From Lachnospiraceae bacterium (GTDB lineage: Bacteria > Bacillota > Clostridia > Lachnospirales > Lachnospiraceae): a stretch of DNA of 64,000 bases. The stretch is from contig JAGAQU010000081.1 in assembly GCA_017622575.1 (NCBI GenBank), positions 1 through 64,000 of the forward strand, given 5' to 3'. Position numbers and translations under genes: made by a program. The first letter of the stretch is position 1. Every line of letters begins with the position of its first letter. The notes under the pieces are model-generated. The model was not told the origin of the DNA, ran no database searches, and was given only the letters and a program-made list of their open reading frames with translations. Shown piece by piece: positions 1 through 2,431 of the stretch.

Positions 1-45
1 AGATGCCTCTTCCTGTTTTTCTTGTATTTATTGGAAACCTGCCCT

Positions 46-205
46 GTCATGGCCTTCAAAAAATCAAGTTGCGGCGATTTTGGGCACGGCGCAAATGAGA
101 CTCATAAAAGCGTGGAAGCCTTTGCTGAACACGCTTTTAAGCTTTGAGGCTCATTGGAGCGTATCGTGCACATGAGCCGCGAGTTGATTTTTTGAAGAGC
201 ATGAC
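46..205. repeat. Long imperfect inverted repeat (about 160-nt hairpin) upstream of topA
   Basis: The two halves (46-114 and 130-205) pair along almost their whole length around a 15-nt loop (115-129). The innermost 10 bp (105-114 with 130-139) are perfect. The arm at 54-70 matches 181-197 at 15 of 17 positions and the outer ends 46-53 and 198-205 also pair. The middle (71-104 with 140-180) pairs with bulges. No T-tract follows, so it is not a simple terminator. No coding function is evident. It could be a MITE-like or REP-like dispersed repeat, or a structured RNA; copies elsewhere in the genome would decide. Confidence 0.75.
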
Positions 206-258
206 ACCTAAAATTTCCCGTAAAAATAAAAATTTATAGTAACTTAATAATTTTCTAC

Positions 259-287
259 TTGCAACCCCATAAAAATAGGTGTATAGT
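259..287 (+). promoter_or_regulatory. Probable sigma-A promoter of topA
   Basis: TTGCAA (259-264) and TATAGT (282-287) are separated by 17 nt. The predicted start near 293 leaves a leader of about 35 nt before the topA start codon. Assigned by eye. Confidence 0.5.
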
Positions 288-328: not shown

Positions 329-2431
329 ATGGCAAAGTATCTGGTAATTGTGGAGTCACCTGCCAAAGTAAAAACGATCAAGAAGTTCTTAGGACCGAAC
401 TATGAGGTTACGGCAAGCAACGGGCATGTCCGTGATCTGCCTAAGAGCCAGCTTGGAATTGATGTAGAGCATGATTATGAGCCCAAATACATCACCATCA
501 GAGGCAAGGGCGATATCCTCGCAAATTTGAGAAAAGAAGTAAAGAAAGCAGAGAAAATTTATCTGGCAACCGACCCTGACCGTGAGGGAGAAGCGATATC
601 CTGGCATCTTTATAAGGCGCTTAAGCTGGAAGATAAGAAGGTATATCGTATCACATTTAATGAGATCACCAAGAATGCGGTAAAGGAATCCTTAAAGAAC
701 GCCAGAGAGATTAATATGGATCTGGTGGATGCCCAGCAGGCAAGACGTGTCCTTGACCGCATGGTTGGATACCGTATTTCACCACTTCTCTGGGCTAAGG
801 TTAAGAGAGGCCTGAGTGCGGGACGTGTGCAGTCTGTGGCACTTCGCATTATCTGTGACAGAGAAGATGAGATTAATAACTTTATTCCGGAAGAATACTG
901 GACCCTGGATGCTTCTTTCAAAATCCCGGGGGAAAAGAAACCCTTGACCACCAAATACTACGGTACAAAGGATGGCAAGGTGACAATTTCTTCACAGGAA
1001 GAACTGAATAGAATAGTGAAAGAACTTGACCATGCGCAGTATCATGTGAGTGAAGTGAAGAAAGGGGAGAGAGTCAAGAAGGCACCCCTGCCGTTTACCA
1101 CATCCACTCTTCAGCAGGAGGCAAGTAAAGTACTCAATTTTTCCACACAGAAGACCATGCGCCTGGCACAGCAGCTCTATGAAGGAATTGATATTAAGGG
1201 AAGCGGCACTGTCGGTGTGATCACTTATCTTCGTACGGATTCCACCAGAGTTTCCAAAGAAGCGGAAGCCATGGCGGAGGAATACATCAAAAAGAATTAC
1301 GGCAGTGAATTCGCCGCAGAAAATACAGAGAACAAAAAGAACAATCAGAAAATTCAGGATGCCCATGAGGCAATCCGGCCGACTGATTTAAATAATACAC
1401 CGGCACTTCTCAAAGATTCCCTTTCCAGAGATCAGTTCAGACTGTATCAGCTGATCTGGAGACGTTTTACGGCAAGCCGCATGGCGCCTGCTAAATATGA
1501 AACTACATCGGTTAAGATTGACGGCGGAAACCATCGCTTTACCGTGGCGGCCTCAAGAGTAGTCTTTGAAGGCTTTATGAGCGTTTATACGGATGAGGAT
1601 GAGAAGGAAGAAAACAATACCCTCGTAAAAGGAATTGATGCTTCTACCAAGCTGACGTTTGAAAAGTTTGATCCGAAGCAGCACTTTACTCAGCCTGCAC
1701 CTCATTATACCGAGGCATCTTTGGTTCGCGCACTGGAAGAGCTTGGCATCGGACGACCCAGTACCTATGCGCCTACCATTACCACCATTCTCGCAAGGAG
1801 ATATGTGGTCAAGGAAAACAGGAATCTGTATGTGACGGAACTCGGGGAAGTGGTCAATAATATGATGAAGGATGCTTTCCCCAGCATTGTGGATGTGAAT
1901 TTTACCGCTAATATGGAGGCTCTTCTGGATGGAGTGGAAGAGGGAAGCGTGAATTGGAAGACAGTAGTGTCCAATTTCTATCCTGACCTTGATGAAGCGG
2001 TAAAGAATGCGGAGAAGGAACTGCAGGAAGTGGAGATTCACGATGAGGTTTCTGATGAGACCTGTGAGGTTTGCGGAAGGAAAATGGTCATCAAATACGG
2101 ACCTCACGGACGGTTTCTTGCATGTCCCGGCTTCCCAGAATGCCGCAACACAAAACCTTATTTTGAAAAGATAGGGGTGGCATGTCCCAAGTGCGGCAAG
2201 GATATTGTGTTAAAGAAAACGAAAAAAGGAAGAAAGTACTACGGCTGTATCGACAATCCCGATTGTGATTTTATGGTATGGCAGAGACCCTCTTCCATGA
2301 AATGCGAGCGCTGCGGTTCCCTGATGCTCTACAAGGGAAATAAACTGGTATGTTCCAATGAAAACTGCGGATTTGTTACCAATGTTCCCCAAAAGAGCGA
2401 TGAGCCGGTTGCAAATCAGGAAACAGTATAG
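329..2431 (+). CDS. topA: DNA topoisomerase I (type IA)
   Basis: Relaxes negatively supercoiled DNA by a transient 5'-phosphotyrosine break. The 700-residue protein has an N-terminal TOPRIM domain (VESPAK with Glu9; acidic triad in DPDREGE at 82-88), the active-site Tyr300 in ITYLRTDS, and three C-terminal Cys4 zinc ribbons starting near residues 579, 619 and 659. The chosen ATG at 329 gives the standard MAKYLVIVESP start and is preceded by AAGGGG; an in-frame GTG at 308 would add seven atypical residues. In many Bacillota, topA precedes trmFO, xerC, hslVU and codY; here codY follows directly. No clear simple terminator separates the two genes, only the inverted repeat around the codY promoter. 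Confidence 0.97.
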   Translation: MAKYLVIVESPAKVKTIKKFLGPNYEVTASNGHVRDLPKSQLGIDVEHDYEPKYITIRGKGDILANLRKEVKKAEKIYLATDPDREGEAISWHLYKALKLEDKKVYRITFNEITKNAVKESLKNAREINMDLVDAQQARRVLDRMVGYRISPLLWAKVKRGLSAGRVQSVALRIICDREDEINNFIPEEYWTLDASFKIPGEKKPLTTKYYGTKDGKVTISSQEELNRIVKELDHAQYHVSEVKKGERVKKAPLPFTTSTLQQEASKVLNFSTQKTMRLAQQLYEGIDIKGSGTVGVITYLRTDSTRVSKEAEAMAEEYIKKNYGSEFAAENTENKKNNQKIQDAHEAIRPTDLNNTPALLKDSLSRDQFRLYQLIWRRFTASRMAPAKYETTSVKIDGGNHRFTVAASRVVFEGFMSVYTDEDEKEENNTLVKGIDASTKLTFEKFDPKQHFTQPAPHYTEASLVRALEELGIGRPSTYAPTITTILARRYVVKENRNLYVTELGEVVNNMMKDAFPSIVDVNFTANMEALLDGVEEGSVNWKTVVSNFYPDLDEAVKNAEKELQEVEIHDEVSDETCEVCGRKMVIKYGPHGRFLACPGFPECRNTKPYFEKIGVACPKCGKDIVLKKTKKGRKYYGCIDNPDCDFMVWQRPSSMKCERCGSLMLYKGNKLVCSNENCGFVTNVPQKSDEPVANQETV

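Follow-up and report, generated by a model that had tools for sequence, protein, structure and literature searches.

Genomic context of the hairpin

The window, meaning here the whole 64,000-nucleotide stretch of a Lachnospiraceae contig that was analyzed, harbors a long hairpin between the terminator-like end of an upstream gene and the promoter-like TTGCAA-17-TATAGT of a downstream gene. The latter, an open reading frame at 329..2431, we take from knowledge of the family to be topA (DNA topoisomerase I). The contig begins inside this repeat, and the end of contig C62 of the same genome (locus L002) is identical to window 1-141; the two contigs therefore join here, and the upstream gene is thereby known. 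The features of the region are listed below, each with its basis in parentheses.

33..218, minus strand: recognizable element, very probably an old copy (fold, alignment with the orthologue in genome G022, full-length copies and ends in relatives)
59..192, minus strand: 134-nt core, family orientation minus (match to covariance model R1, alignment A1, pair counts)
112..132, minus strand: apical motif GTGTTCAGCAAAGGCTTCCAC, written for the minus strand (invariant columns in A1 and across relatives)
105..114, plus strand: inner stem, strand one, TAAAAGCGTG (exact 10-bp pairing with 130-139)
130..139, plus strand: inner stem, strand two, CACGCTTTTA (exact 10-bp pairing with 105-114)
45..67, plus strand: upstream outer arm, which varies between copies (pairing with 184-206, arm exchange relative to the orthologue L123, arm statistics)
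184..206, plus strand: downstream outer arm (fold, self-match 45-206)
259..287, plus strand: promoter-like TTGCAA (259-264)-17-TATAGT (282-287) of topA, given for context (sequence reading, consensus match only)
329..2431, plus strand: topA, a neighbor outside the element (open reading frame beginning MAKYLVIVESPAKVKTIKKFLG)

The original prediction placed a hairpin at 46-205, about 50 bp ahead of the topA promoter, and the structure proved to be real. Window 30-220 folds at -87.6 kcal/mol, compared with -50.0 +/- 3.9 for dinucleotide shuffles (z -9.55, 0/200), and the opposite strand is likewise far under its shuffles (z -8.17). The hairpin is a single long, imperfect stem whose pairing includes the predicted interval and runs slightly further, to approximately 33-218. 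It matches itself over 45-206 at 70% across 171 columns. As earlier described, positions 105-114 pair exactly with 130-139 in a 10-bp inner stem, and the arms share an outer matching block (45-67 with 184-206), the latter consisting of TGTCATG at 45-51 with CATGACA at 200-206, plus CTTCAAAAAATCAA with TTGATTTTTTGAAG. The promoter-like stretch does lie some 50 bp downstream, with the topA start at 329. No open reading frame longer than about 57 amino acids crosses the hairpin, and the neighboring genes run opposite to the orientation of the core. An orthologous copy is found in G022, while the topA region of G015 is without the hairpin and has the promoter-like stretch 259..287 well conserved.

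A dispersed family with a conserved core

The genome that carries the window (G000) contains about 18 full copies of the hairpin and several fragments, as found by sequence search. A covariance model, R1, which was derived from 16 copies and has 134 positions and 50 pairs, confirmed 18 full-length copies in this genome; the window copy, itself among the 16 sequences from which R1 was built, is matched at C65:59-192:- with 149.2 bits and an E value of 4.6e-32. Among 98 relatives, 12 genomes are positive, nearly all of them congeners, with no more than 24 matches each. Within the genus, 11 species carry the family and about 25 lack it. Across Lachnospiraceae, R1 detected the family in 14 of 299 sampled genomes, often in at least 7-11 copies each; the copy counts per genome in these large scans are lower bounds, with 11 candidates scored per genome. 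A scan of 291 Clostridia returned only two positives, both Lachnospiraceae. Several genomes contain about 18-30 copies. A pattern scan of genome contigs placed the family in Roseburia sp. MAGs, Coprococcus comes, Hespellia, Hungatella, and Mediterraneibacter, as well as in unnamed Lachnospiraceae, so that at least five named genera of this family are hosts. Cultured carriers include Coprococcus comes MSK.16.63 and Lachnospiraceae 28-4. The distribution is patchy between species, and the family is absent from every sampled genome outside Lachnospiraceae. One pattern match labeled WOR-3 was not confirmed by R1 and is probably due to chance. A phage, plasmid, or viral carrier was likewise discarded, the viral, plasmid, and phage collections giving no match. 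On contig 62 of G000, several copies and a fragment occur within 20 kb (approximately 55-73 kb), beside apparent repeated short genes.

The 134-nt core is constant in length and conserved in its apical motif and internal-loop bases, the same bulges being kept across genera. Conservation within the family is highest in the apical motif GTGTTCAGCAAAGGCTTCCAC.

Ends, target duplications, and insertion sites

Young copies in relatives (G009 and the Roseburia MAG G098) define a unit of 233-237 bp that is fully palindromic and ends in inverted repeats of the GATTCGGGTGTCAAAAGCC or GATGTGGGTGTCAAAAGCC type. The terminal inverted repeats take the form GATTCGGGTGTCAAAAGCC ... GGCTTTTGACACCCGAATC, with variants, and the paired repeats lie about 236 bp apart. 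They vary by subfamily, with GATTCGGG..., AGGTAATTGCG..., and others, which would be surprising if one sequence-specific transposase served them all. The target duplication is 7 bp long and AT-rich: of 25 full copies, 7 have exact duplications and 13 match at 6 or more of 7 positions, against a control of about 1% exact. The mean identity of the 7-nt left and right flanks of these copies is 0.71, compared with 0.44 for mismatched flanks, and this peak occurs at length 7 only, with nothing comparable at 3-6, 8, or 9. Deletion forms of approximately 110-144 bp retain the same ends, two of them with exact 7-bp repeats (ATCACAT and ATAGCAT). Between G000 and G022, some orthologous sites have a copy in one genome where the other has an empty site or an internally deleted copy, although several of the empty sites may have lost a copy by deletion instead of having been vacant from the start. 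A short, non-coding, multi-copy unit with terminal inverted repeats, a fixed-length target duplication, and presence or absence at orthologous sites has the features that characterize MITEs. A small non-autonomous transposon was one of the two readings originally offered, and many intergenic copies had been named as the sign of a mobile repeat; the survey of copies favors that reading, since the genome contains 18 full copies, 12 of the 98 relatives have the family, 91 of the 92 copies scored lie between genes, and target duplications and empty sites are seen. The mobility of the element, as we read it, rests on this direct sequence evidence.

A scan of five genomes for terminal inverted repeats at insertion-sequence spacing, the sign expected of an autonomous copy with its transposase, found the repeats only about 236 bp or about 110 bp apart. 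Because many of the scanned genomes are incomplete assemblies, the absence of a parent with the same terminal repeats is a weak negative. Since no parent autonomous element with its ends was found, the element is called MITE-like rather than a proven MITE.

At the window copy, no ends, terminal repeats, or target duplication are recognizable, and a clean empty site is absent among the relatives compared. Going by the length of the young copies, the unit would once have extended from about 7 to 242. The lack of a visible target duplication, already noted in the original prediction, is expected of an old copy; it is the younger copies that show the 7-bp repeat.

The possibility that copies had inserted into the loops of existing terminator hairpins, which would account for the copy-specific arms, was considered and rejected. 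The target duplications in G009 lie outside the arms, which indicates that the arms travel with the unit, and the arms are missing at empty sites.

Several further arrangements were observed. Inverted pairs of copies about 80-400 bp apart occur in several genomes (L294 in Coprococcus comes, L383, L393, and L398), as if one insertion attracts another. Lone terminal repeats of about 20 bp without a core (L301:5926, L306:2813, and L360:1798) are probably remnants of deleted copies. In G022, one copy (L143) is located between a promoter-like TTGACA...TATAAT and the start of guaA, so that its transcription as a 5′ leader is expected; the corresponding site in G000 (L158) is empty. Where a copy lies between co-directional genes, the family orientation runs with the genes in 45 cases and against them in 20 (p = 0.003), a bias that could hint at a transcribed role.

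Matching and covariation between the arms

The differences between the arms had been described as compensatory-looking, and the comparison of copies upholds this. In alignment A1, 34 of the 50 pairs have changed on both sides (84 cells), a level reached in 0/500 shuffles and lost when the pairing partners are slid. G-U pairs are as rare as A-C pairs (16/798 cells each), and neither strand therefore behaves as an RNA with wobble intermediates.

The matching is a property of the individual copy. Among 97 copies, the median identity of the arms is 0.78 within a copy and 0.40 between copies; several reach 1.00, and some have perfect arms without good resemblance to any other copy. Hypervariable blocks of the stem match perfectly within a copy and differ between copies. 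In the complete genome G310, for example, copies have their own matched blocks of about 25 nt adjoining the core. The one G310 block tested is absent elsewhere in that genome, save for its own partner arm, and guide-like stem blocks with a distant target were thus rejected. A search with window 38-98 returned only further copies of the family and weak short matches.

Closely related copies allow these changes to be counted. The outer arms of eight near-identical G009 copies contain 16 double Watson-Crick changes versus 26 one-sided or unpaired changes, whereas the core of the same set contains zero double changes. By our estimate, independent mutation of the arms at about 6% per side would give less than one double change in 480 cells. 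One outer-arm triplet in this set reads GGG, CTG, CGG, or TAA, with the partner matching in nearly every copy. Double Watson-Crick changes also separate orthologues (L020/L124 and L009/L128). At the window locus, the upstream arm in G022, CATGCTCTTC, is the reverse complement of the downstream arm in G000, GAAGAGCATG, a pattern that looks as if sequence had passed between the arms.

An additional side hairpin, CCAATAAGACG(N)CGGCGTTTGG, occurs in some copies in G000 and G022 (L013, L122, L127, L147, and L148), always at the same position of the descending arm. For two pairs of orthologues (L006/L122 and L015/L127) it is present in one species only, from which it seems that half-elements are exchanged.

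Part of this record could be explained by a perfect palindrome decaying passively, with no continuing process and with the arm differences as accumulated mutations. Many copies are indeed imperfect, and internal and terminal deletion remnants are common. Passive decay yields one-sided changes, however, while double Watson-Crick changes are common in near-identical copies and between orthologues, and the core bulges are identical across genera. The covariation in A1 and the double changes in G009 disfavor this explanation, which we consider very improbable. The suggestion of a decayed repeat was correct only in part, since specific bulges are maintained in the conserved core and the arms undergo rewriting, not simple decay.

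The other reading originally offered was an RNA under structural selection. In this case the copies would be structured non-coding RNAs or UTR hairpins, spread by duplication, with the stem kept by classical compensatory evolution. The very strong covariation, the fixed core length, the conserved internal-loop bases, the 45:20 orientation bias with flanking genes, and the G022 copy between a promoter-like sequence and guaA are all consistent with such an RNA, and strong selection for pairing could likewise yield double changes. G-U pairs, on the other hand, are no commoner than A-C pairs, neither strand is RNA-like, and the paired blocks have no common sequence between copies. Terminal repeats and target duplications also mark the copies, which come and go between close relatives. 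Nor is there an Rfam match: among nine sources (the window and eight loci of the wider family), none came near the gathering score. The covariation that the RNA reading predicted therefore exists, but it is poor in wobbles, strand-neutral, and strongest in blocks that the copies do not share. A DNA-level process fits it better than RNA selection, and we regard a selected RNA as distinctly unlikely.

Relationship to known systems

MITEs are short and gene-less; they have terminal inverted repeats and stable stem-loop folds, insert into AT-rich sequence between genes, and are flanked by direct target duplications (PMC10969869). The element resembles them in these features. It differs in forming a single palindrome around a conserved bulged core and in having hypervariable self-matched arms, and no parent insertion sequence was found for it. 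The bcr1-bcr3 repeats of the Bacillus cereus group are, like the element, dispersed intergenic MITE-like repeats of a Firmicute group, and often lie within UTRs; they belong to another lineage, and the portions of the source that describe them do not mention hypervariable matched arms, the comparison being one of descriptions only (PMC3446304). ERIC and RU-1 are also small mobile intergenic repeats that have been likened to MITEs; going by the part of the account that describes them, they are set apart as enterobacterial and, at 127 bp, shorter (PMC2759123).

REP/REPIN sequences with their RAYT (HUH) transposase are palindromic intergenic repeats as well (PMC3733652). REPs are 20-40 bp (PMC3733652) and carry a GTAG- or CGTC-type tag, compared with 236 bp and a 7-bp target duplication here, and identity with REPs was rejected because of this length and these duplications. 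A more general possibility is mobilization either by a single-strand system, whether HUH/Y1 like that of REP/REPIN or one resembling integron attC, or by target-primed reverse transcription of a structured RNA, with the fold rather than the ends being recognized. Such a system could account for the greater conservation of structure and core relative to the ends, for ends that differ by subfamily, and for the orientation bias, and self-copied arms would be explicable by fold-back synthesis. The fixed 7-bp duplication and the symmetric terminal repeats speak more for a DDE transposase of the cut-and-join kind; inspection by eye showed no tetranucleotide motif of the RAYT type, and the partner gene was not found. 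We consider a single-strand system unlikely.

Template switching at hairpins has been reported to create and maintain perfect stems and to produce multi-base compensatory changes (PMC8794818). In quasipalindrome template-switch mutation one hairpin arm is overwritten with a copy of the other (PMC8794818, PMC8604942, PMC7202029), which matches the arm pattern seen here. Template switching is a mutation mechanism rather than an element family, and in this element it is inferred from patterns. A literature search found no occurrence of the exact element motif and no paper on the family.

Proposed origin of the hairpin

The window hairpin is, with high probability, an old copy of a non-autonomous, palindromic, MITE-like element of Lachnospiraceae whose arms are copied from each other. 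A putative transposase acting in trans would recognize the terminal repeats and/or the folded core, excise or copy the unit, and place it in AT-rich sequence between genes. Since a single palindrome makes up the entire unit, its arms could repeatedly be copied from each other in DNA, either by template switching at an extruded hairpin or by fold-back during transposition. The paired arm changes, judging from their sequence patterns, would arise mainly from this copying, which would turn single mutations into paired ones and so produce hypervariable, perfectly matched stems. Selection on the bulges of the core, presumably for recognition by the putative transposase, would spare it this rewriting.

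A stronger version of this proposal, to which we give only a small chance, is that the family constitutes a distinct class of mobile hairpin with obligatory fold-back. One arm would be synthesized on the other in each round, the stem sequence could vary freely and serve as a copy-specific barcode made by the element itself, and the mobilizing protein would recognize only the bulged core and the fold. If this obligatory fold-back life cycle is true, the element would represent a new class.

The family is new to the literature and to Rfam so far as these were searched, and it tells annotators what such hairpins in Lachnospiraceae are. It also carries a caution, in that a mobile DNA palindrome can yield covariation of textbook quality, and a functional RNA is not thereby proven. 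With 20-30 copies per genome, the element provides a natural series in which the arms of a hairpin can be watched as they change together, and it makes testable whether compensatory stem changes arise by one-step template switching or by selection via G-U intermediates.
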